Shown: positions 46,852 through 64,000 of the stretch, piece by piece
Numbering within the stretch: the stretch's first letter is position 1
How the letters are laid out: the number at the start of each line of letters is the position of its first letter
Assembly (NCBI RefSeq): GCF_947495625.1
Contig: NZ_CANLZW010000023.1
Coordinates: 1 to 64,000, forward strand
From: an uncultured Cocleimonas sp.
GTDB lineage: Bacteria; Pseudomonadota; Gammaproteobacteria; Thiotrichales; Thiotrichaceae
Length of the DNA stretch: 64,000 nucleotides
Direction: 5' to 3'
Translations under genes and position numbers: made by a program
The notes under the pieces: model-generated
What the model saw: the letters and a program-made list of their open reading frames with translations, nothing else
Databases searched by the model: none
Told to the model about the DNA's origin: nothing

Positions 46852-48054
46852 ATGAAAATACGCAATATACGCATTGTTGACTACGAATCCACAACCGCTG
46901 TCGCTGACAACATAGAGCAACTTCGCATTGCTATTAAAAATCAAAAAAGTGGACTTCGCAAAAATGACTTCCCTTTTTCTGATTTAGACACATGGATTGG
47001 ACGGGTAAGCGCTATTGATGATATTGATTTGGGTGAATGGCAAAGTCGCAACAATGCAATGGCGGCATACGGCTTGCAACAAGGAACAATTTTAGCGCAA
47101 CTTGAAAACCTGAAAACGCGTTTTCGTCCTAGTCGAGTCGGAATCATTATGGGATCCAGCACTTCAAGTATCGATCGCACTGAGACGGCTTACCGCCATC
47201 TCGATGAAAATGGCGCGCTGACGGCAGAATACCAACAAGCAACCGTACATAACCCGCATGGACCAGGGTTATTTGTCGCCCATCAAACAGGCGTGACGGG
47301 CCCTGCAATCACCATCAATACGGCCTGCTCCTCATCCGCAAAAGTTTTTGCCACAGGCGCAAGATGGCTCCAGAGTCTTGTTGTCGATGCTGTTTTAGTG
47401 GGTGGCGTTGATACCTTGTGCTATAGCGTTTTGCACGGTTTTGATTCCCTGCAATTACTCTCTCAAGATCCTTGTAAGCCGTTTGATAATGACAGAGACG
47501 GCATTAATCTGGGCGAAGCATCTGGCTATGCCATTTTAATGCGCGCAGAAGATTGTGAAACAGATACAGGCATCGAGTTAGCCGGTTACGGTGAAAGCTC
47601 GGATGCTCATCACATGTCGCACCCACATCCCGAAGGATTGGGCGCCAAACAGGCGATAGAAAGTGCGTTAACAATGGCAAAACTCCCTGCCGAAGAGATT
47701 GATTACATCAATCTACACGGCACATCGAGTCAGGCGAATGACTCTATCGAAGGAAAATTAATTGGCTCTATGTTTCCATCATCCACACAATGTTCTTCTA
47801 CAAAAGGCTGGATGGCACATACATTAGGTGCTGCGGGGATCACTGAAGCATTAATTGCTATTGATGCCGCGCGAACTGATTTAATCCCTGGTTCTTTGAA
47901 TTTAAGCAATCTGGATAATGAGCTGGATTTTTCTATTACGGCTGAAAATATCGAACGCCCACTGACTCATGTAATGTCCAACTCATTTGGTTTTGGTGGC
48001 AATAATTGCTGTCTGGTTTTCAGCAAGATTGATAGTAATAAGGATAGCGCTTGA
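46852..48054 (+). CDS. Beta-ketoacyl synthase of the aryl-polyene cluster
   Basis: A 400-residue KAS-type condensing enzyme. Active-site Cys159 lies in ITINTACSSSAK, His289 in INLHGTSSQ, and Lys318 and His323 in STKGWMAHTLGAAG, so it should be catalytic. It presumably extends the carrier-protein-bound aryl polyene chain with malonyl units, paired with the chain-length factor that follows (4-base overlap). It is the first gene of the plus-strand operon. No strong ribosome site is seen before the ATG at 46852, but the N-terminus looks complete for the family. Confidence 0.92.
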   Translation: MKIRNIRIVDYESTTAVADNIEQLRIAIKNQKSGLRKNDFPFSDLDTWIGRVSAIDDIDLGEWQSRNNAMAAYGLQQGTILAQLENLKTRFRPSRVGIIMGSSTSSIDRTETAYRHLDENGALTAEYQQATVHNPHGPGLFVAHQTGVTGPAITINTACSSSAKVFATGARWLQSLVVDAVLVGGVDTLCYSVLHGFDSLQLLSQDPCKPFDNDRDGINLGEASGYAILMRAEDCETDTGIELAGYGESSDAHHMSHPHPEGLGAKQAIESALTMAKLPAEEIDYINLHGTSSQANDSIEGKLIGSMFPSSTQCSSTKGWMAHTLGAAGITEALIAIDAARTDLIPGSLNLSNLDNELDFSITAENIERPLTHVMSNSFGFGGNNCCLVFSKIDSNKDSA

Positions 48055-48881
48055 TGAGTGATAATATTTTACGATGCTCCATCAAAGCCGTGGGCGGTTG
48101 GGGACAAAATTACACAAACTGGCAAGAACTTTCAGAATTGCTGACCACTGGCGCTACCGCTGAAAATACAGCAAGCAGTCCTAAGCCAGAAATTATCCCT
48201 GCCAACGAAAGACGACGAGCACCTCTGCCTGTAAAGCTTGCAGTTGAATCCTCATGGCAGGCGACACAATCGGCGGGTTTAGACCCGAAAGGTTTGGCAT
48301 GCGTTTTTGTTTCTGGTTTAGGAGACACTCAACTCACAGACTATATGTGCAAAGTGCTGGCTACCGAAAACATGCAATTATCGCCGACCAAATTTCATAA
48401 TTCGGTACACAACGCCGCCGCAGGTTACTGGACGATTAGTACGGGTTGCATGAAAGCTGCAAACTCTGTCGCAGGTTTTAATGAGTCTGTATCGCTAGCA
48501 ATACTCGAAGCGGTTACCCAGTGCGTTCAAGAACAAGCACCTGTGCAGATTACGTTTTATGACGCACCCTCTTCTGAAATTCTCAAACCGCTATTAAAAA
48601 ATGATCAGTCGTTCTCAGCCTCACTAATTATTGAGCCTGTTTTAGAATCAAATCAGAACGATTCAAACCTACTGGAAATGCAATTAGTGTCACAAGCAAC
48701 AGAATGGCCAGAACTCGATTTGGAAACTCACCTTGATACGAGCTACAAACAGAATCCATCCGCTAGAATTCTGGCAGTATTAAACATGCTGACAAAAGAC
48801 TCTGCGGATACTGTTTTACTTCCACTCAGCGCTGAAACATCGCTTCAGTTAACTTTACATAATCCCAAGCTAGTTAATTAA
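48054..48881 (+). CDS. Ketosynthase-like chain-length factor (Ketoacyl-synt_2)
   Basis: A 275-residue, ketosynthase-related protein without the active cysteine. The diagnostic segment is LSPTKFHNSVHNAAAGYWTISTG, typical of the short Ketoacyl-synt_2 partners in aryl-polyene and related clusters. It should heterodimerise with the preceding ketosynthase and set chain length. The start is the ATG at 48054 inside the upstream stop (TGATGA), favoured over the TTG at 48051. The next gene begins 1 base after its stop. Confidence 0.88.
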   Translation: MSDNILRCSIKAVGGWGQNYTNWQELSELLTTGATAENTASSPKPEIIPANERRRAPLPVKLAVESSWQATQSAGLDPKGLACVFVSGLGDTQLTDYMCKVLATENMQLSPTKFHNSVHNAAAGYWTISTGCMKAANSVAGFNESVSLAILEAVTQCVQEQAPVQITFYDAPSSEILKPLLKNDQSFSASLIIEPVLESNQNDSNLLEMQLVSQATEWPELDLETHLDTSYKQNPSARILAVLNMLTKDSADTVLLPLSAETSLQLTLHNPKLVN

Positions 48882-48882
48882 T

Positions 48883-50460
48883 ATGTCCAATACGCAAAAC
48901 TATGATGTCGTGATAGCAGGAGGCGGACTTGCTGGTCTGTCGCTTTCCATGCAACTCAAACAACAATCCCCTGATTTAGATGTTGCCGTTTTAGAACAAA
49001 GAACATTTCCTGTTCCTGAAACGATTGCCAAAGTGGGCGAATCTACGGTAGAAATTGGCTCTCATTACTTTAGTGAAGTATTGGGACTAAAAGACCATTT
49101 TGAGAAAGATCATCTACGTAAGTATGGGCTGCGTTGTTTTTTTGGTGAACAGCAATCAGACTTTTCAGATCAAGATGAGTTAGGTATTAGTGATCTATTC
49201 GGCATTCCTACCTACCAGATAGACCGAGGCGTGTTAGAAAACAAACTCCACAGGGAAGCGAGCAAGCTAGGCGTAAATGTCATAGATGGCATTTCAACCA
49301 GCAATATCAGACTTGATAAACACCATCAACAAATAGACATTGCGAATAACGGCGACATCAAAACGCTTAATTCCAAGTGGTTTGTGGATGCAGCCGGACG
49401 TCAAATGCTGGTTAAAAAAGAACTCAACCTGGCCAAAGAGAACTACCATAAAGCCAATGCAGTCTGGTTTCGAATTGATCGACAGGTGACTTTAGATGAC
49501 TGGACTTCAAATAGTGACTGGCAAAACCGCCTTGTTGAATCAGGCAAACGTTGGTTAAGTACTAATCACTTAATGGGTCCCGGCTACTGGGTTTGGGTAA
49601 TCCCTCTAGGTACAGGCACAACAAGTATTGGCATCGTTATGGATGATCAGGTTTTTGAAGAAAGTGACTTTAATGATTACGATGATGCATTCGCCTGGCT
49701 AGCAAAAAACCAACCATATTGTGCTAATGCAATTGAAGGTGCCGAGGTTTTAGATTACGTCGCTATAAGAGATTACTCTTATGACTGTAAAAAGTATTTT
49801 TCTGAAGATGGCTGGGGCTTAACGGGTGAAGCAGGCGTATTTGCTGACCCTTTCTATTCGCCAGGTAGTGATGCAATCGCGATGAGCAACACGTTTATAA
49901 GTAGCCTAATAAGCACTCAAAAAGAAAAGAACAATATCAGCCTCGAAAGTGTTGTTTTCAACAGCCTGCAAAATAATTATTACGAAAATACACTTTCTCT
50001 ATACACCCAGCAGTATGGTGGGTTTGGAGACCGTAGAATGATGGGCACCAAGCTACTTTGGGATTATTCGTATTACTGGGGCATATTGAGTTTATTGTTT
50101 TTCAAAAATACCTTTGTTGATATCGATACGATACGCGAGCTAAACCCTCTTCTAGCAAAAGCTAAAATGCTCCACCAGCAAGTTCAGGAGAAATTAAGAG
50201 AGAGGGCCAGCAAACGCATTATTCAACCTGCACAAGGCATTTTCCTTGATCAATACCTTATTCCTTGTTTACGCCATTTCAATGATGTCTTAAAAGACTA
50301 TGAAACGGTAGACATTAGAGAGGCTGTAGCCACCAATACTGAGATGCTCGAGCGCATTGCGAAATACTCACTTGAGTTTTTGTCTGACAACCCTAGCCAA
50401 TCTATCAGCGATGATGAAAGAGATTTGCTAGGTGAGTATCGACACAGTGTTTTAGCGTAA
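48883..50460 (+). CDS. Flavin-dependent halogenase-like oxidoreductase (first)
   Basis: A 525-residue FAD enzyme. GGGLAG (13-18) begins the dinucleotide fold. KVGEST (50-55) matches the region after the first strand in halogenases, and WVWVIP (236-241) fits the WxWxIP motif said to keep flavin-dependent halogenases from acting as monooxygenases. A GEAGVFADPFYSPGSDAI segment follows. The C-terminal 180 residues are mostly helical. The catalytic lysine cannot be placed by eye, so oxidation without halogenation remains possible. It is embedded in the pigment operon, 1 base after the chain-length factor. Confidence 0.8.
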   Translation: MSNTQNYDVVIAGGGLAGLSLSMQLKQQSPDLDVAVLEQRTFPVPETIAKVGESTVEIGSHYFSEVLGLKDHFEKDHLRKYGLRCFFGEQQSDFSDQDELGISDLFGIPTYQIDRGVLENKLHREASKLGVNVIDGISTSNIRLDKHHQQIDIANNGDIKTLNSKWFVDAAGRQMLVKKELNLAKENYHKANAVWFRIDRQVTLDDWTSNSDWQNRLVESGKRWLSTNHLMGPGYWVWVIPLGTGTTSIGIVMDDQVFEESDFNDYDDAFAWLAKNQPYCANAIEGAEVLDYVAIRDYSYDCKKYFSEDGWGLTGEAGVFADPFYSPGSDAIAMSNTFISSLISTQKEKNNISLESVVFNSLQNNYYENTLSLYTQQYGGFGDRRMMGTKLLWDYSYYWGILSLLFFKNTFVDIDTIRELNPLLAKAKMLHQQVQEKLRERASKRIIQPAQGIFLDQYLIPCLRHFNDVLKDYETVDIREAVATNTEMLERIAKYSLEFLSDNPSQSISDDERDLLGEYRHSVLA

Positions 50461-50517
50461 AGTGCTTACTAAGCTATTAAACTAAGTTATTAAATACGCC
50501 ATCAAAGATTAGATGCT

Positions 50518-51084
50518 GTGAATTCAAAAAAAATACTATATGCCCTGATAGCCATTGTGACTGTGGCCTATCCCTTTATCGTCTATTTCAGCCTCGATAG
50601 GTTTGGGCCTTCTCTGCTTTCTTTGGCGCTTTTTATTATTTTACTAGCACGAGTCATTCTAAGAGGTGAATTCCAAAGGCCGGAACAATATGCCCAACTG
50701 ATTTTAGTAGGTGGATTGTGTGTAATTGCAGCATGGTTTAATAGTGAAGAATTACTTCGTTATTATCCCGTCATGATGAATCTTGCTTTTGCAGGATTTT
50801 TTGCGTTGTCACTCACCACTGAAACATCCTTGGTTGAACGCTTTGCCCAGATGTTTATGAAAGAAATTCCCGATGAAGGTCGACAATATATGCGAAACCT
50901 TTCGATGGTCTGGGCCGTTATTCTTATTGTTAACGCAGCCATAGCCTTCTACACCGCATGCTGTCTTTCACTTCAAGCCTGGACTTTCTATAATGGCTTT
51001 TTAGCGTATATTTTCCTCGGTGGTTTTATGGCCCTTGAATATGGTTACCGTAAGATTCACATCAAAAGACACGAAGAAAAATGA
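50518..51084 (+). CDS. COG4648-family membrane protein of aryl-polyene clusters
   Basis: A 188-residue inner-membrane protein with about five hydrophobic spans and a basic C-terminus (GYRKIHIKRHEEK). Segments such as FAGFFALSLTTETSLVERFAQ and YNGFLAYIFLGGFMALEYGYRK match the COG4648 membrane proteins found in aryl-polyene loci, often misnamed gyrase subunit. It may help with translocation or final assembly, but its role is unproven. The start is GTG at 50518. It overlaps the next gene by 4 bases (ATGA). Confidence 0.78.
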   Translation: MNSKKILYALIAIVTVAYPFIVYFSLDRFGPSLLSLALFIILLARVILRGEFQRPEQYAQLILVGGLCVIAAWFNSEELLRYYPVMMNLAFAGFFALSLTTETSLVERFAQMFMKEIPDEGRQYMRNLSMVWAVILIVNAAIAFYTACCLSLQAWTFYNGFLAYIFLGGFMALEYGYRKIHIKRHEEK

Positions 51085-51533
51085 CAGGCATCAATCTAGC
51101 AATCACAGCAGAAGAGTTAAATCAGCAATATCCCGAGAAGGATAAATGGCCAACATTCTCTGTGTGTGAAACACCCAGCACTTTAGCCACTGATAACTCA
51201 TACGAAGTCATTTGTGACATTCCTGTGAGCTTATCCTATTTTAAAGGACACTTTCCAGATCAGGCGGTATTACCCGGCGTGGTTCAGATTAACTGGGCGA
51301 ATGATCTAGCGAAACGGTTATTCAAATACGAAGAATTCAGAGGCGTTAATTCTTTAAAATTTAACACCATGATTTTGCCTGAAACCAAGGTAATCTTATC
51401 GCTCACCTTAAACCCTGAAAAACACACTGTGAAATTTCGATATACCTCGATCACAGAAGACGATTCAATGACGGAAGAAAAGGATGAAATCCTTTTTTCA
51501 TCTGGCATATTAGTATTTTCAGAGGCTAAATAA
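51081..51533 (+). CDS. ApeI-like hot-dog dehydratase
   Basis: A 150-residue FabA/FabZ-like hot-dog protein. The motif YFKGHFPDQAVLPGVVQINWA contains the catalytic histidine and matches the ApeI-type dehydratases of aryl-polyene synthesis, which form the conjugated double bonds with a partner (here the protein from 53304). It overlaps the preceding gene by 4 bases. The C-terminal half is more divergent and acidic (TEDDSMTEEKDE). Confidence 0.85.
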   Translation: MTGINLAITAEELNQQYPEKDKWPTFSVCETPSTLATDNSYEVICDIPVSLSYFKGHFPDQAVLPGVVQINWANDLAKRLFKYEEFRGVNSLKFNTMILPETKVILSLTLNPEKHTVKFRYTSITEDDSMTEEKDEILFSSGILVFSEAK

Positions 51534-51541
51534 TTTATATC

Positions 51542-52273
51542 ATGTCTTATTGTCTTGCTGTCCCTCATTATAATCACTTCCAGTCTTTTGAAGCATTCTT
51601 GCCAAAACTAGAATCATTAGGCATGGCATGCATTGTTGTCGATGATGGCAGCGATGAAGATCAACGCAAAAAGCTTGAGGAATTGCTCTGTAACTATCCT
51701 GAAATAACACTACTCAAGCACGCATATAATCGAGGCAAAGGCGCAGCGATTTTGACTGCAGCCCATGCAGCAAGACAGGCTGGGCATACTCACATCATTC
51801 AAATTGACGCAGACGGCCAGCACAATATCGAAGATGTACAAAAACTCATTTCACATAGCGAGACTAACCCACACAAAATAGTTTCCGGTGCCCCCTATTT
51901 CGATGAGAGCGCCCCAAAAGCAAGAGTGTACGGCAGAAAGGTAACGAGCTTCTGGGTTGCCCTGGAAACACTGTCGTTTGATATTAAAGATAGCTTATGC
52001 GGCTTTAGAGTCTATCCGCTTAAAGAGTTTGAAATCGTATTTGATAATTACAATGTCGGCAAACGTATGACATTTGATACGGATATTTTAGTCAAATCAC
52101 ATTGGGAAGGCATCAAAACCGACTTTATCGACACAAAAGTCATTTACATCGAAAACAATGTGTCTCATTTTCATTATATGAGAGATAATTTACTCTTAAT
52201 CAAACTCCACACCAAGTTAATGCTAGGTATGCTGATTCGCATTCCTAAAATTATACTTCTAAAATTTAGCTAA
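51542..52273 (+). CDS. Glycosyltransferase, GT2 family
   Basis: A 243-residue GT-A enzyme. The nucleotide-sugar motifs are VVDDGSDEDQ and the DxD-type IQIDADGQHN. A later SLCGFRVYPLKEF block is typical of the GT2 proteins in aryl-polyene clusters, where they are thought to help attach the pigment to a lipid or sugar anchor. It is 8 bases after the ApeI-like gene and 2 bases before the acyltransferase. Donor and acceptor are unknown. Confidence 0.87.
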   Translation: MSYCLAVPHYNHFQSFEAFLPKLESLGMACIVVDDGSDEDQRKKLEELLCNYPEITLLKHAYNRGKGAAILTAAHAARQAGHTHIIQIDADGQHNIEDVQKLISHSETNPHKIVSGAPYFDESAPKARVYGRKVTSFWVALETLSFDIKDSLCGFRVYPLKEFEIVFDNYNVGKRMTFDTDILVKSHWEGIKTDFIDTKVIYIENNVSHFHYMRDNLLLIKLHTKLMLGMLIRIPKIILLKFS

Positions 52274-52275
52274 AC

Positions 52276-53307
52276 ATGAGTAATTCCAGTAACAGTAAGA
52301 ACAACGAGCAAAGAGCGGCAAGTGACGATTCTCACTGGTCTTCCGCTCAGGAAGCTGGGACTTTGTTTGGGTTACGTTTTCTCTGGTTGATCCATAAAAC
52401 ACTTGGACGAAAAGCTGTATCTATATTGTTATTACCTACGGTTGCTTACTTTGTGATTTTTCGTGCTGATTCACGTAAAGCATCGCAAGAATTCCTGAAA
52501 AATCATTACCAACAATACCCTGACTTCTGGAAGCGCAAACCTAAGTTTTCCGACACTATTCGTCACTTCCGTCAATTCGCCGAGACCGTTGTCGATAAAC
52601 TCTCATCCTGGTATGTGGAGCTTGATAGCGACCTGTTTAAAATTCACTCACCAGAAGTCGTTGAAACGTTACTAAACGATACTCGCGGACAATTGATTAT
52701 TGGCTCTCATTTTGGCAATCTGGAATTCTGTCGTGGTTTTATGCATCGCTATAAAGACAAATCTATCAACGTATTACTTCACGATAAGCATTCACAGAAC
52801 TACACCAACATCATGGCTCAATTGAATCCAGATTCGAGACTCAATGTGTATCAGGTTGATGAGTTCAATATCAATACGATTCTGTCTTTTAAGGAAAAGA
52901 TAGATGCAGGAGAATGGCTCTTTATAGCAGGAGACAGAATTCCACTAACTGGCGTGGAGCGTACGGTCACTGTCGATTTCTTTAATAAAAAAGCGGCATT
53001 ACCGATTGGCCCTTATTTACTGGCGAAGGCATTAGATTGCCCGGTAAAACTGATGTTTTCCTATCAAGACTTTGCAGATAAATCTGGGCAGATACAATTT
53101 GAAGTGGTCGACTTCGCTGAAAAGATTGTACTTAGCCGCAAACAACGACAAAGCGATATTGAAAACTATGCACAAAGGTTTGCCACAGAATTAGAAAAGC
53201 AGTGCGCTAAAGCACCTTTTCAATGGTTTAATTTTTATGATTTCTGGCTACCTGAAGAAAACCCACAGGAACAAATTAACACTATCGCTAACAAGGAAGT
53301 AGCATGA
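52276..53307 (+). CDS. LpxL/HtrB-type lysophospholipid acyltransferase
   Basis: A 343-residue membrane-associated acyltransferase. After a polar N-terminus there is a hydrophobic span (about residues 48-65, SILLLPTVAYFVIF). The HX4-D/E catalytic motif lies in IIGSHFGNLEFCRG, and GDRIPLTGVERTV and PIGPYLLAKALDCPV follow as in LpxL. In aryl-polyene loci such enzymes link the pigment or an extra acyl chain to the lipid anchor. Its 3' end overlaps the ApeP-like gene by 4 bases. Confidence 0.87.
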   Translation: MSNSSNSKNNEQRAASDDSHWSSAQEAGTLFGLRFLWLIHKTLGRKAVSILLLPTVAYFVIFRADSRKASQEFLKNHYQQYPDFWKRKPKFSDTIRHFRQFAETVVDKLSSWYVELDSDLFKIHSPEVVETLLNDTRGQLIIGSHFGNLEFCRGFMHRYKDKSINVLLHDKHSQNYTNIMAQLNPDSRLNVYQVDEFNINTILSFKEKIDAGEWLFIAGDRIPLTGVERTVTVDFFNKKAALPIGPYLLAKALDCPVKLMFSYQDFADKSGQIQFEVVDFAEKIVLSRKQRQSDIENYAQRFATELEKQCAKAPFQWFNFYDFWLPEENPQEQINTIANKEVA

Positions 53308-53777
53308 GCGATTTAGCAACACGCTTTGACCCAGAAATATTAACGTTAATTCCACACCGCCCACCTATGCTGTTGATTAACAGAATATTGGAAGTTAGCG
53401 AAAAACAATCGAGTGCTGAGGTGTTTATCGACAAGGAAACCACTTTTTATGAAAAAGATTTGGGCGTACCAGCAACCATTGGATTGGAATTCATGGGACA
53501 AACTGCTGCGTTAATCGCAGGCAATCAAGCGATAAAAAATCCGGCAGATGCCAAGCTTGGTTTTTTACTGGGAACTCGAAAATATCAATCCACACTATCT
53601 TATTTTAAAGAAAACAGTGTACTGGTCGTCGAATGCAGTGAAAGCGCTATGGTAGGAGAAACACTGGCAAGTTTTAGTTGTACAATTCGCTATAAAGACG
53701 AAGCAGAAATCATTGCCAGTGCCAACTTATCTGTACTTCGTCAGCCAATCAATAAATCACCTGCAGAGAATCATTAA
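53304..53777 (+). CDS. ApeP-like hot-dog dehydratase
   Basis: A 157-residue hot-dog-fold 3-hydroxyacyl-ACP dehydratase. It opens with LTLIPHRPPMLLINRILEVSE, the ApeP/FabZ-like HRPPM motif, and carries the helix GLEFMGQTAALIAGNQA. In the known aryl-polyene pathway the ApeP and ApeI types form a dehydratase pair, and both are present here. It is in the middle of the plus operon, with overlaps or 2-base gaps on both sides. Confidence 0.87.
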   Translation: MSDLATRFDPEILTLIPHRPPMLLINRILEVSEKQSSAEVFIDKETTFYEKDLGVPATIGLEFMGQTAALIAGNQAIKNPADAKLGFLLGTRKYQSTLSYFKENSVLVVECSESAMVGETLASFSCTIRYKDEAEIIASANLSVLRQPINKSPAENH

Positions 53778-53779
53778 TA

Positions 53780-55027
53780 ATGCCAGCTTCATCAAAATCA
53801 CCCAATCGAGTCGTTATCACTGGCGCTGGCAATATCTCGTCAATGGGCTCAACCTGGGAAGAAATAAAAACATCTTTTGAAAGCAAACAATCAAAAGTGT
53901 GTTACATGGAAGAATGGGATCAATACCCCGAGCTTAAAACGCGTCTGGCTGCACCCATCAAAGACTTTGAGCTACCAGACACCTATCGCCTAAAAAAGAA
54001 AAGAAGCATGGGTAGAGTTGCACAGATGGCTGTACGTGCCACTGAATTAGCGCTTAAAGAATCAGGTTTGTATGGTGAAGATGTCATTACTAACGGTCAG
54101 ACAGGCGTGAGCTTTGGCTCTGCAACGGGCAGCAGCGCGGGTGCTGTAGAATTCTTCAGCATGCTAGAAGAACAGTCGATGGAACGCATCAATACCACCA
54201 CCTATATTCGCATGATGAGCCACACAGCAGCGGTTAATATCGGCATATATTTTGGCACCAAAGGACGCGTATACACAACCTCTAGCGCTTGTGTCGCAGG
54301 AAGCCAGGGCATTGGTTATGCCTATGAAGCTATTCAGTCGGGCAAACAAAAAGTCATGATTGCTGGTGGCGCGGAAGAGCTTTGCCCAACTCAGGCAGCG
54401 GTTTTCGATACCATCTTTGCTGCCAGTATCACCAATGACACCCCCCACCTTTCGCCCCGTCCTTTTGATAAAGATCGTGATGGCCTTGTTCTTGGCGAAG
54501 GCGCTAGCTCACTGATATTAGAATCTTACGATCACGCTAAAGAACGCGGCGCTAATATTCTGGCTGAAATCATAGGATACGGTACAAACTCTGATGGCTC
54601 GCATATCATGCGTCCGAATCAGGAGACCATGCAAAGCGTGATGCAAATGAGCCTTGATGATGCCGGAGTTACAGCAGATCAAATTGGTTATGTTAGCGCG
54701 CACGCCACAGCGACCGAATACGGCGATATCGCAGAATCACAAGCGACGTTAAATGTACTCGGCAAAAAGCCAACCAGCTCGATTAAGAGCTATACTGCGC
54801 ATAGTCTTGGTGCCTGTGGTGCGTTTGAATTGTACTCCACTATCCAGATGATGAACGAAGGCTGGTTCGCGCCCACACTAAACCTGACTGAAGTTGATCC
54901 AAGGTGTGCTGATTTAGATTATATCCAAGGTGATCTAAGAGCGATTGATACTGATATGGTTATGAGCAATAACTTTGCATTTGGCGGGATAAATACATCT
55001 TTAATTGTAAAAAAGTTTAAAGATTAA
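53780..55027 (+). CDS. FabF-like ketosynthase of the aryl-polyene cluster (second)
   Basis: A 415-residue condensing enzyme, complete in its active site: Cys171 in TTSSACVAGSQG, His308 in VSAHATATEYGD, and Lys336 and His341 in SIKSYTAHSLGACGA. The N-terminus RVVITGAGNISSMGSTWEEIK and the SPRPFDKDRDGLVLGEGAS block are standard KAS II. It probably makes the elongation or starter condensations in the same pathway as the first ketosynthase. It is the last gene of the plus operon; a C-rich element with T-tract follows 9 bases after its stop. Confidence 0.93.
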   Translation: MPASSKSPNRVVITGAGNISSMGSTWEEIKTSFESKQSKVCYMEEWDQYPELKTRLAAPIKDFELPDTYRLKKKRSMGRVAQMAVRATELALKESGLYGEDVITNGQTGVSFGSATGSSAGAVEFFSMLEEQSMERINTTTYIRMMSHTAAVNIGIYFGTKGRVYTTSSACVAGSQGIGYAYEAIQSGKQKVMIAGGAEELCPTQAAVFDTIFAASITNDTPHLSPRPFDKDRDGLVLGEGASSLILESYDHAKERGANILAEIIGYGTNSDGSHIMRPNQETMQSVMQMSLDDAGVTADQIGYVSAHATATEYGDIAESQATLNVLGKKPTSSIKSYTAHSLGACGAFELYSTIQMMNEGWFAPTLNLTEVDPRCADLDYIQGDLRAIDTDMVMSNNFAFGGINTSLIVKKFKD

Positions 55028-55946: not shown

Positions 55947-55947
55947 A

Positions 55948-57264: not shown

Positions 57265-57307
57265 TTTTTGATTGTTGGTTTGCTAAAAACTATTTGTTCA
57301 TCGCAAG

Positions 57308-58051
57308 CTAACACATGCCACCATTGACGCTAATCGTCTGGCGCGTGATATAAGCCGCTTTATCAGAAAACAGAAAACTAATGGTTGATGATATATCACT
57401 GGCTTGACCAAAAGTGCCCATCGGGATCATCTTTTTAGCTTCTTTGACATAGGCCTCTTCTTTAAAAAGCCCCTCAGTCATATCTGTCTCGATGACTCCG
57501 GGAGCAACCGAATTAACAGTGATTTTACGTTTCGCCAATTCGATAGCGAGCGATTTACTTGCGCCTATAATACCTGCTTTGGCAGCACTATAATTTACCT
57601 GACCACGATTTCCGATTAAACCAGATACAGAGGTTAAGGTCACAATTCTACCGCCCTGTCTTAAACGAATCATTGGCATAATCAATGGGTATAACACATT
57701 ATAGAAGCCATCCAGATTGGTGTGAATCACACTATCCCACTGTTCGGCTTCCATCGCTGGGAATGCGGCGTCGTCAGCGATACCAGCATTACAAACAACA
57801 CCATAGAAAGCCCCGTTTTTCTCTAAATCTGCCTCTAACAAGGCTTTGGTTTGTTCTCTATCACCAATATCAAATTGCATGATTTGACCTGAGCCACCCG
57901 CTTTTTCGATAAGCTCAAGCACTTCATCCGCAGCTTTTTGATTACTATTGTAATGCACAGTGACATCAAAGCCATCAGCGGCAAGTTCAATCGCGGTTGC
58001 CTTGCCGATACCTCGACTGGCGCCAGTGACCAATACTCTTTTTTTACTCAT
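57308..58051 (-). CDS. FabG-like 3-ketoacyl-ACP reductase
   Basis: A 247-residue short-chain dehydrogenase/reductase. TGASRGIG is the NADPH motif, NAG is in VVCNAGIADD, and the Ser-Tyr-Lys triad lies in LTSVSGLIGNRGQVNYSAAKAG. The PGVIETDMTE segment and C-terminal ISVNGGMC fit FabG-type reductases of aryl-polyene clusters. It supplies the ketoreduction between condensation and dehydration. It sits between the MMPL exporter and the second halogenase-like gene in the minus operon. Confidence 0.92.
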   Translation of the reverse strand: MSKKRVLVTGASRGIGKATAIELAADGFDVTVHYNSNQKAADEVLELIEKAGGSGQIMQFDIGDREQTKALLEADLEKNGAFYGVVCNAGIADDAAFPAMEAEQWDSVIHTNLDGFYNVLYPLIMPMIRLRQGGRIVTLTSVSGLIGNRGQVNYSAAKAGIIGASKSLAIELAKRKITVNSVAPGVIETDMTEGLFKEEAYVKEAKKMIPMGTFGQASDISSTISFLFSDKAAYITRQTISVNGGMC

Positions 58052-58082
58052 GATTTGTTTTCCATAACAGCGAACTCTATCT

Positions 58083-60512
58083 CTATTTATAACGTGTTAT
58101 TGCTTTGTTTGCCAAAAACTCGGCATAGATCAACGAAGCAATTAAATTAAAACTATTTCCAATAAATAAAATCATACCAAAACTTTGTGCAACCGGAATA
58201 GCGCTTAAACCTAATAATCCGAAAGACAACAGGCTTGTGATTGCGGAAATAAAGATCGCCTGCTGCGTAACATTTCCGTCTTGAAGTTCATAGGCAAATA
58301 TACCGTAATCCATCCCCAAGCCCAGCACCAGAAACAATGCCATCACATGAAATAGATTGAAGGACACACCCAATACATTCAATAACACAATTAACGCTGC
58401 GGTGGCACACAATGGAACCAGAACAATGTTTAAAGCAGATAATTTACGATAGCGACTCAGTATTAAAAGTGCAATTAAAGCATAGGCTACAAGTAACAAT
58501 TGAGTGGCTGAAACGCGCTGATCTGCCAATGATTTTTTCGCGCTTTCGACCGTATTCACATAGTTTACAAAAGGCATCGTGTTGCTTAGCTTTTCTAGAG
58601 CTTCAAAGTCTGTTCCTTTGGCGATTAAGATAAAGTTTCGAAAATTGTCCCCAGCTTTGCTATTTTTATGCCCCTGTTCTACAGGACTTTTTGCAACCTG
58701 ATCTTTTTTTGTATACCAAAGCGGTGGCAGTATCTCTTTAAAAAGCTCGTTCAGTTGTTGCGGCTCTAGAATCAGTTTTTCTGAATTTGCATATTCAGTT
58801 TTGATGACTTTTGCCTTACTTTTTTCAGCACCCAATAAGGAATACAAGGCATCAACGGCTTGATTGTCTCCGTATAGCTTTCCCTGTATCTGATAGTTCT
58901 CACGCTGCTGTTGAGGCGTTGGCAACCATTGCGTAATACTTTTAAAATTATCGGCTATAAGTGGGGGGGTGGCTTTTACTTTATCGTAAAACGACTCTGT
59001 TAGGCCAATAAGCTCTTCAGAGCTCTGACCACTGATTACCACGAATCTACCTGGTTCATAGTCCGAAGCTATTTGGGATACAGCAACCTCACTCGCTAAT
59101 ATCTCTGGATCAGGCGTAAAGAAAAAACGTGGATCATCACTGGTTTTAACAGCAAATATACTGAGCGCCAAACTCAGCATTAATAGCACAATCGTTATAA
59201 CCACGATTCTGGGACTAAATACCGTTAAGGGTCGCTTGAAAATATTTAATATTGTATTGATGACTGTGTTATTCACCTTAATTCTTTTACTCGAATATTG
59301 CCCTAAACAGATAACGCTTAACCACGCCATTGTTAATCCACAGCAAGAAAACACAGCCACCTTTTTCAAGGCATCGAGTTGAGAAAAATATAAGGCCAAA
59401 TATCCTAATAGTGACGTCACCAAACTTAATAACAGCGCGCTATGTAATCTGGATTGCGAATGCTCAACACCACGTTCTGCGCCAGCACTTACGCCATCTG
59501 ATAAAGCCTGGGACTGATGGAAGAAATAATGAATCGAATAGTCGATTACAATACCAATCAAACTTGCGCCAAACACGATGGTTAATATGTGAATTTTTCC
59601 GTAAATAAAATGCGAAACAGCAAAGGCAAAAGCAACGCCAAAAGCAATCGATAAAAACGGCAGTATCAACGGCACCACACTACGAAACGTTAAGAGCAAT
59701 ACCAGCAGCACGCCAACCATCGAAATAGTGGATATAAAACTGATATCTTTTTTAGATTTACTCGCCGCATCCACGGCAAAGAAAAACACACCTGAGCGCA
59801 GTATTTCAATCTTGTATTTGTCTTTAAGGTCTTTACTAATCGTGTTGATATCAGCAAGCAGTTGATTCTGCCCGTCTAATCCCAGCCCATCTTTTTGCAA
59901 TTTAGTTTGGATAACAGCGTAATGTTTTTTGTGCTTTTTATTTTGCTCGGCATCATCACTACTGCTAGCTTCAGAACCATGGGTTTGCGCCTGTTCCAAA
60001 TCTGCGCTTATCTTTTGCAGAAACTCACTAAAATATTCGCTATGAACGCCTAGAGGGTCTTTTTCAAAAGACATGAGTGGTGCATTTGTGAGTCGAAACA
60101 GCTTCGCCTGAGCTTGTTTTGCAAGCTCTTCTGCACTTTCTTCTTTAATATTTTTCTGCGCTGTTGCAGTGAGTAAGTGAAACCGATATTTCGCCAGTGA
60201 ATCAATGATATCAGTCAGCGATAAAGCATCACTCGATAAAACAGTTAATGGCTTAAGTTCGGATAAGCGTTTGCTCAAATCTGCCTTTGCTGCATCAAGT
60301 TGTTGCTTATCATCAGCACCTACGACGAACAAAATATTACGACTGATATTTTCAGTCAGTCCATCCATCGCATCTTGTGTTGATTGATCTAATTCCAGAT
60401 CTGGTGAAAGATCACCAAGGCTGGTATCGACAACGAGTTTGCCGCTGTTTTGAAAAAAGAAGGCAAGCGTAAAAACAATGCAGATTACAAATAGTGATCG
60501 CCAAACAATCAT
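58083..60512 (-). CDS. MMPL/RND-type exporter of the pigment cluster
   Basis: An 809-residue inner-membrane protein with two large periplasmic loops (about residues 30-250 and 460-630) and two groups of hydrophobic spans, the first with GASLIGIVIDYSIHYFF and the second with VLGLGMDYGIFAYEL, the MMPL/SSD-type signatures. Such proteins accompany aryl-polyene and xanthomonadin loci as putative exporters towards the outer membrane. A copy of the C-rich element falls in the second periplasmic loop (58955-58980). It is 10 bases after the LolA-like gene. Confidence 0.9.
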   Translation of the reverse strand: MIVWRSLFVICIVFTLAFFFQNSGKLVVDTSLGDLSPDLELDQSTQDAMDGLTENISRNILFVVGADDKQQLDAAKADLSKRLSELKPLTVLSSDALSLTDIIDSLAKYRFHLLTATAQKNIKEESAEELAKQAQAKLFRLTNAPLMSFEKDPLGVHSEYFSEFLQKISADLEQAQTHGSEASSSDDAEQNKKHKKHYAVIQTKLQKDGLGLDGQNQLLADINTISKDLKDKYKIEILRSGVFFFAVDAASKSKKDISFISTISMVGVLLVLLLTFRSVVPLILPFLSIAFGVAFAFAVSHFIYGKIHILTIVFGASLIGIVIDYSIHYFFHQSQALSDGVSAGAERGVEHSQSRLHSALLLSLVTSLLGYLALYFSQLDALKKVAVFSCCGLTMAWLSVICLGQYSSKRIKVNNTVINTILNIFKRPLTVFSPRIVVITIVLLMLSLALSIFAVKTSDDPRFFFTPDPEILASEVAVSQIASDYEPGRFVVISGQSSEELIGLTESFYDKVKATPPLIADNFKSITQWLPTPQQQRENYQIQGKLYGDNQAVDALYSLLGAEKSKAKVIKTEYANSEKLILEPQQLNELFKEILPPLWYTKKDQVAKSPVEQGHKNSKAGDNFRNFILIAKGTDFEALEKLSNTMPFVNYVNTVESAKKSLADQRVSATQLLLVAYALIALLILSRYRKLSALNIVLVPLCATAALIVLLNVLGVSFNLFHVMALFLVLGLGMDYGIFAYELQDGNVTQQAIFISAITSLLSFGLLGLSAIPVAQSFGMILFIGNSFNLIASLIYAEFLANKAITRYK
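58951..58982 (-). repeat. C-rich element copy inside the MMPL gene
   Basis: On the minus strand, AGTAAAAGCCACCCCCCCAC then TTATAGCC. It differs at only two bases from the intergenic copy at 45774-45801 plus flank over about 24 bases. In frame it encodes V-K-A-T-P-P-L-I-A. Confidence 0.7.
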
Positions 60513-60522
60513 GAATGATTAC

Positions 60523-61227
60523 TCAGTTTTGGCCGCTGGTAGTGATACGAACTGGATTCAATAATAATTTACAGCCATCAGCAGAAAGCGATGCACACCT
60601 CTCTGAAAATGCAGCATCTTTAGAGAGTTTATCGTTCATCGCATATTGCTGTTTTTCGCTACTCACTATTCTGGTTACTTGCTGGTTTTTATCGGTGATT
60701 GAAATCTGTAACTCTTTTTTAGTATTTGGCTTTGCTAACACAACAGAATCAATAGCCTGTTTCACCATTTTATTTTTCGGTACTAAGCTTAACTCAACGC
60801 CTGTCGTATCATTCTTTGAAATCTGGAAATCGAATTCTTTTGCTATGAACTCAGTATTGCCAGCCATCAAGCCCAGTAACAGATTTGCCAAAAAGTCATG
60901 CTGAACGCCATCCAGAATTTCAACAGAAAGTTTTTCTGGCACTAAAAAGTTGAGTTTTTGATTAGTAAAAACCAGCGACTCGACAATCGGCTTTTGCGTT
61001 TTCCAGATTAAACCTAAATCACAGGAATAAATGAATTCGCCCATTGAAACCAATGGAACTGGTAGACTTTTTATTTGCTTGCTTTGACTGAACTCACCGG
61101 AGAAGTTACACGCTTCTGGCATCATAGACTTTAATGCTTTTATGTTTTCTGGCGTATTGGCGCTTAGTGAAACACTACTAACTACACTGGCCATCAAACA
61201 AAGCATTAACAAAAAAGGTCTAATCAT
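60523..61227 (-). CDS. LolA-like outer-membrane carrier protein
   Basis: A 234-residue periplasmic protein (signal peptide about residues 1-24, LLMLCLMASVVSSVSLSA) of the LolA-related type found in aryl-polyene clusters. CNFSGEFSQSKQIKSLPVPLVSMGEFIYS and GLIWKTQKPIVESLVFT resemble the LolA start. It probably carries the hydrophobic pigment or its lipid across the periplasm together with the MMPL protein. ATGA overlap with the thioesterase gene supports the start. Three late cysteines suggest a disulfide. Confidence 0.85.
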   Translation of the reverse strand: MIRPFLLMLCLMASVVSSVSLSANTPENIKALKSMMPEACNFSGEFSQSKQIKSLPVPLVSMGEFIYSCDLGLIWKTQKPIVESLVFTNQKLNFLVPEKLSVEILDGVQHDFLANLLLGLMAGNTEFIAKEFDFQISKNDTTGVELSLVPKNKMVKQAIDSVVLAKPNTKKELQISITDKNQQVTRIVSSEKQQYAMNDKLSKDAAFSERCASLSADGCKLLLNPVRITTSGQN

Positions 61228-61703
61228 GCATCACCTTGTTCTTCTGGTTTTTCATCAGCTAGGGCCTTAAATGCAGCATCGACGCTATCCAGGAGTTGTT
61301 TAGGCGCATCAAACTGGGTGATTTCTTCTGGCATCTTTACAGCAAATTGCGTCGTCTGCCCCTTGGTAACCACATCTCGCGTTGCGACATCAACAATTAG
61401 ATAATCGATAACGAGCTTATGCTCCCACTCTTTCAGTTCTGCAGTAATTTCAAACTGCTGTTCAAACCGCAAAGGCCTGATGTACTTGGTGTGCAGATCA
61501 ACCACTGGATAAAAATAGCCAGTTTCTTCCATATCTGCATAGGTGAAGCCTATTTTAGACAGCAATTTACAGCGCGCTATTTCAAAATATTTCGGGTAGT
61601 TGCCATGCCATACGATGCGATATGAATCGACATCATAAAAACCCACTTCCATGGGAAGTGTGACACTCAGTGTCGGACCTGCTTTTTTTGAATTGGTTTT
61701 CAT
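61224..61703 (-). CDS. Hot-dog thioesterase (4HBT type)
   Basis: A 159-residue 4-hydroxybenzoyl-CoA-thioesterase-like protein. The catalytic segment is VGFYDVDSYRIVWHGNYPKYFEIARCKLL, with the aspartate typical of the 4HBT group. YIRPLRFEQQFEI and a QTTQFAVKMP strand follow. In aryl-polyene loci such thioesterases edit or release the chain. It sits between the ACP gene and the LolA-like gene, with 16-base and overlap spacing. The tail (EKPEEQGDA) is disordered. Confidence 0.9.
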   Translation of the reverse strand: MKTNSKKAGPTLSVTLPMEVGFYDVDSYRIVWHGNYPKYFEIARCKLLSKIGFTYADMEETGYFYPVVDLHTKYIRPLRFEQQFEITAELKEWEHKLVIDYLIVDVATRDVVTKGQTTQFAVKMPEEITQFDAPKQLLDSVDAAFKALADEKPEEQGDA

Positions 61704-61719
61704 TAAACTGATATTTCTA

Positions 61720-61971
61720 TTAGATTTCTACGATGATTTTAACCACATCATCGATAGTTCTCGCATCTTTAAATAGCTTCGGTGATAAATCTTTGCCGGT
61801 ATGCTTTTTTAGCTCTACCATCAGATCAACCGTATCAATACTGTCAATATCAAGGTCTTGATAGAGGCGCGCATCTGCGACCAGTTCTGCTTCTTCTAAT
61901 TCAAATAACTCGATTAATTTTTCTTTCAACTGTTGAAGAGTTTGTTGGTAGCTTTGTTCATAACTGCTCAT
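61720..61971 (-). CDS. Acyl carrier protein
   Basis: An 83-residue carrier protein. The phosphopantetheine serine is Ser44 in DLDIDSIDTVDLMVEL, within the usual four-helix pattern. Aryl-polyene systems normally use two carrier proteins; only this one is in the window. It needs a phosphopantetheinyl transferase encoded elsewhere or beyond the edge. The gap to the upstream PlsC-like gene is 145 bases and contains a CATAAAT/ATTTATG hairpin followed by T9 on the minus strand, so the ACP onward may have separate transcript control. Confidence 0.92.
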   Translation of the reverse strand: MSSYEQSYQQTLQQLKEKLIELFELEEAELVADARLYQDLDIDSIDTVDLMVELKKHTGKDLSPKLFKDARTIDDVVKIIVEI

Positions 61972-62116
61972 ACTGTAACGCTCATATTTATTCTAACTCA
62001 CTGTATATATTCTTATGCGCAATTGTACTATTAAACGCATTATGAATCTTTCCAAAAAAAAACGCCTGAGCTCTGCATAAATTCCATTTATGTTTTTTAA
62101 CAACAAAAACATAATG

Positions 62117-62929
62117 TCATTCAAAGTGGGGGGGTGGCTTATCAGTTTTGGTTGTATAGTTATCTAATTGCTTAATTGCCGTTAGATAATAGTCTCTTAA
62201 AAAATCAGTTAAACGACGGTATTGAATAGTTCTTGCCAAGCTTGTATCAATGCATTCCTCAATGGTTAACGTAGGATTTATCCGCACTAAAATTTTTGAT
62301 TTGATATCAGGAAGCTGATACCAGCTTTCATACTTTTGCAAAGCACGCGGCGAACACGTTATAAGAAAAGGAACAATATCGCTATTTGCATGAATCGCAA
62401 TATTTGCGGCACCACGTTTGAATTCCAATTGAGTGTCGTATTGGTTACGCGTACCTTCAGGAAATATTAGAATATTTTCACCAGCGGCAAGTTTCTCCGC
62501 AGCCATGCCTACCAGATCTTCTTCATCATTAGGAATATAACCGGCCAGACTCACGGTTAGGCGTGTTACAAGATTACGAAAAAGTGCTTCTTTCACCACG
62601 CAACATACATCATCTACATAGGCTAAAATAAATAACGCATCAATCAACATAGAATGATTGGAAATGACAACTTTGCCTTTGATTTCATCGCTATTAAGTC
62701 GTTCTAAATCATAAGACATCAATCCCAGAAATTGCATAAAATCAACATAGAACTTACACAGTCTTTGTATGGTTTTACGGATTTTTTTCTGCTTCCCTTC
62801 CTGATCCTTTACAAAAACAACAATCAAAACAGCATGAATGACAGGAAAGAATGCGCCCACAGTAAATACAATATAACTAATGCCTGCAGCGATAATCCGC
62901 CAGTAATGGTTGAGAGATAGGATCTTCAA
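62117..62929 (-). CDS. PlsC-like 1-acylglycerol-3-phosphate O-acyltransferase
   Basis: A 270-residue membrane-associated acyltransferase. N-terminal hydrophobic spans are followed by the HX4D motif in VISNHSMLIDALF, then the FPEGTR motif in ILIFPEGTRNQYDTQLEFKRGA and NSDIVPFLI. It probably builds the lipid anchor of the pigment, complementing the LpxL-like enzyme. The last eight residues (DKPPPHFE) are encoded by a C-rich element, so the natural C-terminus may have been extended by it. Confidence 0.87.
   Translation of the reverse strand: MKILSLNHYWRIIAAGISYIVFTVGAFFPVIHAVLIVVFVKDQEGKQKKIRKTIQRLCKFYVDFMQFLGLMSYDLERLNSDEIKGKVVISNHSMLIDALFILAYVDDVCCVVKEALFRNLVTRLTVSLAGYIPNDEEDLVGMAAEKLAAGENILIFPEGTRNQYDTQLEFKRGAANIAIHANSDIVPFLITCSPRALQKYESWYQLPDIKSKILVRINPTLTIEECIDTSLARTIQYRRLTDFLRDYYLTAIKQLDNYTTKTDKPPPHFE
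62118..62145 (-). repeat. C-rich element forming the 3' end of the PlsC-like gene
   Basis: On the minus strand, AAGCCACCCCCCCACTTTGA then the stop TGA. The core is present with C7 and TAC changed to CAC; no T-tract follows directly. Confidence 0.65.
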
Positions 62930-62972
62930 GGATTTATCTGGGAATAGATAGAAGGACGTTTAAAGTCAAACA

Positions 62973-63917
62973 CTAAGCGCAATAGCATTCAACTTCGACA
63001 AGCAAGTTAGAACGGCAAATATCTGCAATTGTGTAAATTTTCGCCGCATCGGGAAAATCTATATCTAATGATTTCTTTGATTCTTCCAGGCAAGATTTAT
63101 TTCGCAGATACACTTTCATGGTTTGAATCGAATCAACTTCGTAGCCGGTTTTTTCCAGCAAGTGAAAAATATTATCTTTGGTGATTTGTAGTTGGGCGGC
63201 TAAATCACCCTCATGCAACGTCTCATGTCCAATGATACTAGCCGTACCAGAGATAAATAACAGATTGCCTTTAGGGTGTTCGAGACTGGTTGCACGCGCA
63301 AAAGATGGACTACTGATACCATATTGGCGCGGATACTGATAAGCGTTCTGCTGTTTATTATTGGTATGGTGAATGCCTTTGTAAACGCTGGATATTGCGT
63401 ATATCGTCATGCCGCCAGTGACATTTCCAACGGCAGTAGCAGCAGGAAAATCAGCATCGTTTATGCCCGCCTGTTTAAATGCTTTGAGGCGACCATTACA
63501 AAATAATTTATAGTTTTCGTTATCGCCCAGCCCTTTATTGATCGCAGGCACATAGTTCCAGAAACGTAACAGGTTTTGTTGTTCGGTTTGATTAATAAAT
63601 GCTAATAACTCAGCGTAAACAGACTCTGTTGCTGCCTCTAAGTCTTCACATTCTTCTGCTGTTAAGCTAATAGATGTAAACAAAAAACCGCCAGATTCAG
63701 ACCACTTGCATAAGCCAGATATTCCGCTGATTACAGGCTCATCTTTAATCTTCCATAATTCATGCACAAAATCGCTGGCATCGGTTCTACCGAGACCTGA
63801 AGGTATGTGATTTTGACTTTGACGAGTGATCGGACAATCGAAACCAATAACAGCCAAATTCTGGGATTCTGCATTGAGTTGTTCTGCCGATGCACTCGAA
63901 TAAGAATTAATAAGCAT
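62973..63917 (-). CDS. Chorismatase of the XanB2/FkbO/Hyg5 type
   Basis: A 314-residue enzyme that in its family splits chorismate to pyruvate and hydroxybenzoate (3-hydroxybenzoate, and 4-hydroxybenzoate in XanB2) or a cyclohexadiene acid (FkbO). Recognised segments are LLRFWNYVPAINKG, NYKLFCNGRLKAF, FPAATAVGN, ARATSLEHP, FISGTASIIGHETLHEGDLAAQL and ADICRSNLLVEVECY. The C-terminal part is YjgF/RutC-like, as is usual. Which product is made cannot be read by eye. It gives the cluster its own aromatic starter supply. Its start overlaps the gene at the right edge by 11 bases. Confidence 0.87.
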   Translation of the reverse strand: MLINSYSSASAEQLNAESQNLAVIGFDCPITRQSQNHIPSGLGRTDASDFVHELWKIKDEPVISGISGLCKWSESGGFLFTSISLTAEECEDLEAATESVYAELLAFINQTEQQNLLRFWNYVPAINKGLGDNENYKLFCNGRLKAFKQAGINDADFPAATAVGNVTGGMTIYAISSVYKGIHHTNNKQQNAYQYPRQYGISSPSFARATSLEHPKGNLLFISGTASIIGHETLHEGDLAAQLQITKDNIFHLLEKTGYEVDSIQTMKVYLRNKSCLEESKKSLDIDFPDAAKIYTIADICRSNLLVEVECYCA

Positions 63918-64000
63918 TTTCTGTATTCTCTAGCGAAGAATGTTCATATTCAGCCGAACGAGGACTAAAACATGAAAAAGGTTTTAAATGGAAATTAGCT
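63907..64000 (-). CDS. C-terminal fragment of an upstream gene, truncated by the window edge
   Basis: A frame open to the edge ends at 63907-63909 with 30 visible residues finishing ...AEYEHSSLENTENAY. It overlaps the chorismatase start by 11 bases, the pattern of a coupled operon. Nothing in the fragment identifies a family. Candidates from related clusters are an aryl-CoA/ACP ligase or a reductase, which cannot be tested here. Confidence 0.5.
   Translation of the reverse strand, partial: ANFHLKPFSCFSPRSAEYEHSSLENTENAY

Follow-up and report, generated by a model that had tools for sequence, protein, structure and literature searches.

Gene content, conservation and predicted product of a probable xanthomonadin-like aryl-polyene cluster in an uncultured Cocleimonas sp.

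Gene content and organization of the cluster

The window analysed here, a stretch of 64000 nucleotides from an uncultured Cocleimonas sp. (Thiotrichaceae; assembly GCF_947495625.1), comprises positions 1-64000 of a contig of 80491 bases (NZ_CANLZW010000023.1) in a draft genome of 4.60 Mb and 89 contigs. Its last part (46852-63917) harbours a type II aryl-polyene (APE) cluster, which extends past the window end with the genes for a second acyl carrier protein (ACP2) and an AMP-ligase. The parts retrieved were a ketosynthase-chain length factor (KS-CLF) pair, an ApeR-type KS, two dehydratases, a ketoreductase (KR), two ACPs, a ligase, a thioesterase, two acyltransferases, a glycosyltransferase, a LolA-like carrier, an MMPL exporter, and a chorismatase. 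Very likely, this is a complete xanthomonadin-like APE cluster of a marine gammaproteobacterial branch. Gene identities and order were established by Pfam/NCBIfam profile matches, and some active-site residues were read by eye in the translations. These matches recovered every gene listed in an earlier note on this DNA and added the second KS, the family 2 glycosyltransferase (GT2), and the IspA-like membrane protein. The two convergent operons described in that note were found to meet at 55027/55077, and neither an ammonia lyase nor a methyltransferase occurred among the scanned cluster genes, in agreement with the note, which saw neither. The features are as follows (FDH, flavin-dependent halogenase-like protein; +, forward strand; -, reverse strand):

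45803-46753, -, MipA-family outer-membrane protein (PF06629, 2.3e-34), divergent from the KS-CLF operon
46852-48054, +, ketosynthase of the KS-CLF pair, ApeO-like (Pfam KS domains; NF006618 above cut-off)
48051-48881, +, CLF-like protein, ApeC / Lysobacter ORF16-like (PF13723, 3.9e-24)
48883-50460, +, FDH1 (Trp_halogenase, 7.2e-14; nearest PDB entry PltA)
50518-51084, +, IspA-like small membrane protein (PF04279, 3.1e-7)
51081-51533, +, ApeI-like dehydratase (PF22818, 4.2e-13)
51542-52273, +, GT2 (PF00535, 1.6e-16)
52276-53307, +, LpxL-type acyltransferase (PF03279, 3.9e-10)
53304-53777, +, ApeP-like dehydratase (PF22817, 1.4e-13)
53780-55027, +, second, stand-alone ApeR-type ketosynthase (NF006587, 649 bits)
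55077-55946, -, Cupin_8 / JMJD5-like Fe(II)/2-oxoglutarate oxygenase in the junction slot (PF13621, 3.1e-34)
55948-57264, -, FDH2, second halogenase-like flavoenzyme (Trp_halogenase, 4e-22; nearest PDB entry 8zop, a halogenase)
57308-58051, -, FabG-like ketoreductase, ApeQ-like (PF13561, 7.9e-57)
58083-60512, -, MMPL-family exporter (PF03176, 1.3e-12)
60523-61227, -, LolA-like periplasmic carrier (PF03548, 9.2e-6)
61224-61703, -, 4HBT-type thioesterase (PF13279, 3.8e-12)
61720-61971, -, ACP1 (PF00550, 3.6e-10; DLDIDSI site)
62117-62929, -, AGPAT-type acyltransferase (PF01553, 1.4e-17)
62973-63917, -, chorismatase of the FkbO/Hyg5/XanB2 superfamily (PF21168, 6.1e-31)
64160-64441 of the contig, +, ACP2, 93 amino acids (PP-binding, 2.6e-10)
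64468-65838 of the contig, +, AMP-ligase (PF00501, AMP-binding, 1.7e-19)

The polyene machinery proposed in the earlier note was borne out by these profiles and by matches to the ApeO-ApeC and ApeR structures. The KS at 46852-48054 possesses the active-site cysteine (CSSS) and both histidines, and the active-site cysteine is absent from the CLF-like protein, as read by eye. Structure matching of the KS components covered the CLF-like protein and the stand-alone KS. The CLF-like protein had a sole PDB match, the ApeO-ApeC entry 7f28 (7.9e-5), and the stand-alone KS matched best with 7f27 (AbApeR) and 4ewg, the latter being termed an ApeR homologue (PMC8358021). The cluster hence has both KSs and both ACPs of an APE engine. 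The ACP2 and ligase genes are located directly behind the chorismatase gene, on the opposite strand, so that both the aryl-activating ligase and the second ACP that the earlier note proposed to look for beyond position 64000 are present. The ligase is a predicted hydroxybenzoate starter ligase. A single-ACP cluster was considered as well and rejected, as the 93-amino acid open reading frame (ORF) past the window end is an ACP.

Conservation among relatives

Counts for named loci refer to the best 80 of at least 568 confirmed chorismatase loci, with flanks of at most 10 kb and often shorter, and are lower bounds where genes are missing. A further 28 stretches were picked among the better family and class matches and hence not at random, giving 108 comparison stretches; at least four of them (G009, G205, G262, and G393) are probably the same contigs as L087, L092, L108, and L155. 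All 20 query genes (the cluster genes of the window, the MipA gene, and the ligase gene) were collinear in G001, a genome of the same genus (90-100% identity), and likewise in G412, which belongs to another family (28-72% identity). This shared order is more than chance. The position of the MipA gene was kept in G001, G412, and G413, and this gene probably belongs to the cluster. Homologues of the IspA-like protein were present in the clusters of some, but not all, relatives.

Within the genus, a chorismatase was found in four of the 12 genomes, precisely the four that contain the ApeR-type KS of the cluster (at least 86% identity); the remaining eight displayed KS matches of at most 37% only. 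A chorismatase-family match occurred in 26 of the 63 genomes of the family, 22 of these belonging to two other genera (32-42% identity), and in 71 of the 369 genomes of the class sample. Of 15 core genes, three or more were nearby in 56 of the best 80 loci and in 18 of the 28 further stretches, and none in 14 and eight, respectively. Chorismatase genes thus often, but not always, lie beside polyene genes. ACP2 was also present at 56 of the best 80 loci; its identity amounted to 59-98% in relatives of this branch and to 47-58% in other stretches among the matches listed. It was found at the KS end instead of beside the ligase in three loci of Alteromonadaceae (L093, L095, and L098).

The ApeR-type KS was searched in 19 genomes, reached via 19 of the best 80 loci. 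It was present with at least 54% identity in ten of them, namely Alteromonas sediminis, Alteromonas aquimaris, Mangrovimicrobium, Saccharophagus, two Stenotrophomonas, three Dyella, and Caballeronia. Only matches at FabF level (at most 38%, one partial match at 41%) were obtained in the remaining nine (three Rhodanobacter, two Oleiagrimonas, Alteromonas indica, Methyloversatilis, Ectothiorhodospira, and Pelagicoccus). According to the coordinates, Caballeronia and the three Dyella genomes have the ApeR-type KS on a different contig from the chorismatase, whereas both were within one cluster in the one Stenotrophomonas genome that was examined for this. The Alteromonas loci L094, L097, and L098 share this chorismatase-linked polyene cluster; in A. 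indica (L098), the neighbouring genes are retained, yet no KS exceeds FabF level (35%).

Chorismatase and head-group supply

The chorismatase gene stands between the AGPAT-type acyltransferase gene and the ACP2-ligase pair. A hydroxybenzoate head group made by this enzyme, as put forward in the earlier note, is supported by the presence of the ligase and ACP2 and by the co-occurrence of chorismatase and cluster KS in the genus. The protein matches the structures of Hyg5 and FkbO. The chains 5ag3 and 5a3k are presumably those of Hyg5, consistent with the published Glu-334. Residues G240, C327, and E334 of Hyg5 correspond to G224, C301, and E308, FkbO having an alanine at the first of these positions. 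Residues of the CH-II type are listed in PMC7170507 in Nat-hyg5 numbering, with an offset of 9 from Hyg5. The CH-II set of Hyg5 (Gly, Gly, and Cys at 173, 240, and 327) is represented by two of its three residues (Ala162, Gly224, and Cys301), leaving the chorismatase type ambiguous when judged from residues. Indeed, the product of a chorismatase is described as not predictable from alignment alone (PMC3949708). A XanB2-like (CH-III) enzyme producing 3-hydroxybenzoate (3-HBA) with some 4-hydroxybenzoate (4-HBA) seems likelier, the CH-III assignment itself being a guess. For Hyg5, a mechanism via an arene oxide has been described (PMC7170507, PMC4685789).

A separate, conserved locus with a link to chorismate was observed in the genome (L171:5157-17430; contig C16, approximately 73156-85429). 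It encodes a cytochrome P450, a highly reducing type I polyketide synthase (PKS) of 2628 residues (KS-AT-DH-MT-ER-KR-ACP), an Rv2949c-like chorismate lyase, a formyltransferase, and an aminotransferase-fold enzyme that resembles an alpha-oxoamine synthase by eye. A long PKS frame was found on the same contig, approximately 10 kb from the lyase gene, in seven of the nine lyase-bearing genomes of the genus. This suggests a 4-HBA-linked polyketide in Cocleimonas.

Halogenase-like flavoenzymes and the operon junction

A catalytic lysine residue and the motifs WxWxIP and FxDPxxSxG are marks of the halogenase family. FDH1 has the lysine within KYGLRCF and carries the motifs as WVWVIP and FADPFYSPG; FDH2 has it within KRGASF and carries them as WSWQIP and FVDPMLSPG. 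In the stretches examined, WxWxIP was present in all 43 FDH-like ORFs and FxDPxxSxG in 42 of these. A quick tree was built from 42 of the 43 ORFs, all from chorismatase stretches and without the Azoarcus arcA; L102 (333 amino acids) was dropped, ORFs of more than 560 amino acids were trimmed at the FAD motif where found, L132 formed a long branch, and group labels were derived from a motif in the very proteins grouped. FDH1 fell into clade A (14 rows, support 100) together with genes of Alteromonas, Saccharophagus, and Rhodanobacteraceae, most of which adjoin the CLF or GT2 gene; halogenase genes beside the KS-CLF pair are also described for Xanthomonas (PMC3691225). FDH2 was placed apart from these, in clade B (6 rows, support 100). 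The 22 rows of a third set were mostly located beside the chorismatase in other bacteria, which is the position of arcA in Azoarcus (PMC3949708). FDH1- and FDH2-type genes occurred together in only three of the 108 comparison stretches (G001, G412, and G317). At 1e-40, FDH2 matched in seven of the 369 class-sample genomes, with more than 40% identity in four (its own, G317, G412, and G235). Its clade was represented at just two of the best 80 loci, those of Mangrovimicrobium (L099) and of an uncultured Pseudomonadales bacterium (L089).

The Cupin_8 and FDH2 genes occupy the junction of both operons in this genome and in G001. In G412, one more small gene accompanies them, and in G317 there are approximately 10 kb of other genes. 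FDH2 alone stands at the junction in Mangrovimicrobium (L099), neither gene does so in G413 and G205, and the FDH2-clade gene of L089 lies beside the MipA and ligase genes instead of at the junction. The Cupin_8 protein resembles the structures of JMJD5 and FIH, and the metal triad (H144-x-D146 and H224) was present in 5/5 sequences. The insert of G317 (L060-L061), between FDH2, Cupin_8, and the ApeR-type KS, encodes a peptidase C13, a PLP decarboxylase, an ArsR-family regulator, a LysR-like regulator (by eye), and a DUF885 protein. Small proteins with a signal-like start (by eye) were noticed at or near the junction in L062:15454-15900, L090:7757-8212, L092:16478-16912, L094:16242-17066, and L093:16264-17076; that of L062, the only one of the five scanned, had no Pfam match. 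Two other small junction proteins, in G412 and G317, displayed weak HEAT_2 matches.

Relation to known pigment clusters

This kind of cluster is already known, and its novelty is the tailoring slot with a second halogenase clade and the Cupin_8 gene. With the xanthomonadin (pig/xan) cluster of Xanthomonas and Lysobacter it shares the chorismatase (XanB2/ORF5), a KS with an N-terminal-only CLF, the KR, two dehydratases, an ACP, an acyltransferase, the LolA-like carrier, and exporters, and with that of Xanthomonas also the halogenase beside the KS-CLF pair (PMC3691225). Compared with the xanthomonadin cluster, the Xanthomonas side being taken from the literature, the ApeR-type second KS, ACP2, the cluster thioesterase, the second halogenase clade, and the Cupin_8 protein are extra; one KS and no thioesterase are named in the gene description of the Lysobacter paper (PMC3691225). 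The five Rhodanobacter and Oleiagrimonas genomes with chorismatase loci differ from the present one in the absence of the ApeR-type KS.

The arcuflavin cluster of Azoarcus sp. BH72 has in common a halogenase (arcA), a chorismatase (arcB), MipA (arcC), acyltransferases, a glycosyltransferase, LolA, an exporter, an AMP-ligase, an ACP, dehydratases, and a KS (PMC3949708, Table 1). The genes form one locus here but two in Azoarcus, no methyltransferase and no DarB above the cut-off were found here, and FDH2 falls outside the FDH clade that adjoins the chorismatase. ArcB yields both 3- and 4-HBA (PMC3949708). Mutants in the Azoarcus and Lysobacter clusters lose their pigment, and 3-HBA rescues the Lysobacter chorismatase mutant (PMC3949708, PMC3691225). 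The earlier note had singled out the locus as a special hybrid, which was overstated, since the chorismatase, halogenase, MipA, LolA, exporter, acyltransferases, and AMP-ligase make up the published arcuflavin/xanthomonadin set (PMC3949708, Table 1) and a chorismatase beside polyene genes is common.

The APE clusters of Xenorhabdus and Acinetobacter share the ApeO-ApeC pair, the stand-alone ApeR KS, the dehydratases, the ApeQ KR, two ACPs, and a benzoyl-ACP ligase activity (PMC8358021). The present cluster differs from these in a head group from an in-cluster chorismatase and in the presence of halogenase-like genes. Escherichia coli-type APE clusters are not known to contain such halogenase-like genes. 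The clusters of Alteromonas, Saccharophagus, Mangrovimicrobium, and Stenotrophomonas share the ApeR-type KS (59-66% identity in six of the seven genomes searched), and the first three also the ligase beside the chorismatase and gene blocks as found here; the gene order of Stenotrophomonas differs. In contrast, no Cupin_8 gene occurred in the stretches of these four genera examined, and only Mangrovimicrobium (L099) had an FDH2-clade gene. Among the papers listed in an abstract-level literature search, none dealt with this cluster in Cocleimonas or with a Cupin_8 protein in an APE cluster.

Alternative readings of the chorismatase, the flavoenzymes, and the junction genes

Several findings weigh against reading the locus as a chorismatase-fed cluster for a halogenated, hydroxylated pigment. 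Concerning the exact product, the chorismatase has A162 where Hyg5 has G173 and scores 192 bits with TIGR04444, of which the cut-off is 325. In other genera of the family, a more distant chorismatase is frequently found apart from any cluster gene (11 short loci and G055). Both WxWxIP and FxDPxxSxG are shared by 3nix, for which the annotation is just flavoprotein/dehydrogenase, so that their presence is no proof of halogenation. In G011 and G009, the Cupin_8 gene stands alone at the junction and FDH2 is absent, though the core is the same as far as the contigs reach. Finally, Cupin_8 relatives (53-60% identity) in eight of the 369 class-sample genomes had no cluster gene nearby in the seven of these eight that were checked, four of the stretches being only 4-9 kb long; this makes the Cupin_8 protein look recruited. 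The distant chorismatases bear on the possibility that the enzyme serves ubiquinone through 4-HBA, besides or instead of the pigment, like XanB2 in Xanthomonas. XanB2-type enzymes yield 3- and 4-HBA and connect to ubiquinone (PMC3949708), 22 of the 25 genomes of the two other genera possess such a more distant chorismatase, no other cluster gene was present in any of the 11 short loci or in the one 20-kb stretch (G055) examined from these genera, and 14 of the best 80 loci lacked any core polyene gene in the stretch examined. Moreover, no clean UbiC for ubiquinone was found in the genome; a weak match to PF04345 (UbiC, 30.6 bits) fits an Rv2949c-like family better (64 bits) and lies in the type I PKS locus, and the idea of a true UbiC that relieves the chorismatase of ubiquinone duty was withdrawn for this ORF. 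However, eight of the 12 genomes of the genus are entirely without chorismatase, the enzyme accompanies the cluster in all four that have it, its gene is flanked by the acyltransferase on one side and ACP2-ligase on the other, and nine of the 12 genomes possess a chorismate lyase of the Rv2949c-like type. A role in ubiquinone biosynthesis is rather unlikely. A polyene esterified to a dialkylresorcinol, as in arcuflavin or flexirubin-type products, is far less probable still. Arcuflavin is built with the same polyene kit (PMC3949708), but the best match of the genome to the DarB-type model NF005293 amounted to 49 bits against a cut-off of 450, in a draft of 89 contigs in which DarA was not searched, and the dialkylresorcinol ester was rejected as no DarB-type match exceeded the cut-off.

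Regarding tailoring, the pigment might be unhalogenated, with FDH1 and FDH2 acting as oxidases or hydroxylases. The superfamily includes non-halogenating members, FDH2 scores almost alike with the monooxygenase model QhpG (98 bits) and with CmlS (105 bits), and both proteins fall far short of the curated thresholds set for the listed NCBIfam models. The xanthomonadin-like pigment of Lysobacter is unbrominated, but the Lysobacter cluster, as described, is without a halogenase gene, whereas the Xanthomonas clusters combine a halogenase gene with a brominated pigment (PMC3691225). In alignments, WxWxIP of FDH1 coincides with that of PltA and 3nix and WxWxIP of FDH2 with that of 8zop and 3nix; the lysine of both aligns with 3nix and that of FDH2 also with 8zop. 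On balance, an unhalogenated pigment is rather doubtful, and both flavoenzymes are predicted from their motifs to act as halogenases on the product. The Cupin_8/FDH2 pair may also be a passenger at the operon junction that does not act on the pigment, which is a serious possibility, short of an even chance. It would agree with the varying content of the slot (Cupin_8 alone in G011 and G009, neither gene in G413 and G205, and approximately 10 kb of unrelated genes in G317), with the isolated Cupin_8 relatives elsewhere, and with the FDH2 relative of G235 (41-43%), of which the 12.7-kb contig carries just a weak partial MMPL match and no clear polyene cluster. Yet, this junction holds both genes in members of two families (G000/G001 and G412/G317) and FDH2 alone in Mangrovimicrobium, and all six rows of the FDH2 clade come from polyene clusters, which is not independent evidence as the tree was drawn from chorismatase stretches only. 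As a tentative explanation, the junction could be an exchangeable slot, with FDH1 halogenating one part of the molecule, for example the aryl ring, and FDH2 acting on the polyene or elsewhere on the chain while this is bound to the carrier; the Cupin_8 protein, of a recruited JMJD5-like hydroxylase family, would hydroxylate the polyene. The role of the Cupin_8 protein in the pigment is the least certain part of this model.

Proposed pathway and product

For the xanthomonadin-like cluster as a whole, the substrate, the halogenation and its position, and the final ester are predicted from the genes only. The chorismatase would convert chorismate into 3-HBA, and perhaps also 4-HBA, and the AMP-ligase would charge one ACP with 3-HBA. 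Malonyl units carried on the other ACP may then be added by the KS-CLF pair and by the ApeR-type KS, acting as a second condensing enzyme, and repeated condensation, reduction, and dehydration by these enzymes, the KR, and the two dehydratases would lead to a conjugated polyene. FDH1 and FDH2 may halogenate this polyene, either while it is bound to the carrier or once it has been released; the halogen would most likely be bromine taken from seawater. The Cupin_8 protein might add a hydroxyl group, this being the least certain step. Attachment of the polyene to a lipid carrier would involve the thioesterase, both acyltransferases, and the glycosyltransferase, and the product would reach the outer membrane via MMPL, LolA, and probably MipA. 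Early steps of this pathway are experimentally supported for homologues in Azoarcus, Lysobacter, and Acinetobacter (PMC3949708, PMC3691225, PMC8358021). The predicted product is probably a yellow, halogenated membrane pigment like that of Xanthomonas. Cocleimonas flava was named for its yellow colour.

Chorismatase-fed, halogenase-bearing APE clusters hence extend to marine Gammaproteobacteria, outside the plant-associated Xanthomonadaceae, and here a two-KS, two-ACP APE engine is combined with a xanthomonadin-type head-group supply; in other respects, the cluster is quite typical of a large pigment family that is already known. If the slot hypothesis is true, closely related marine bacteria would vary the halogenation and hydroxylation of an outer-membrane polyene by gain or loss of two genes. 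The natural series of presence and absence of FDH2 and Cupin_8 at one junction offers a comparison for which enzyme halogenates which position.

Neighbouring genes

The genes after the ligase, outside the cluster as drawn, encode an SMC-like ATPase, a TSP3-repeat protein, an HD phosphohydrolase, aroB- and aroK-type shikimate-pathway functions, and a secretin with PilP, PilO, and PilN. On the other side, a gene for a MATCAP-family metallopeptidase-like protein (PF08014, 5.5e-121; window 44467-45732, reverse strand) adjoins the MipA gene and is drawn outside the cluster as well.

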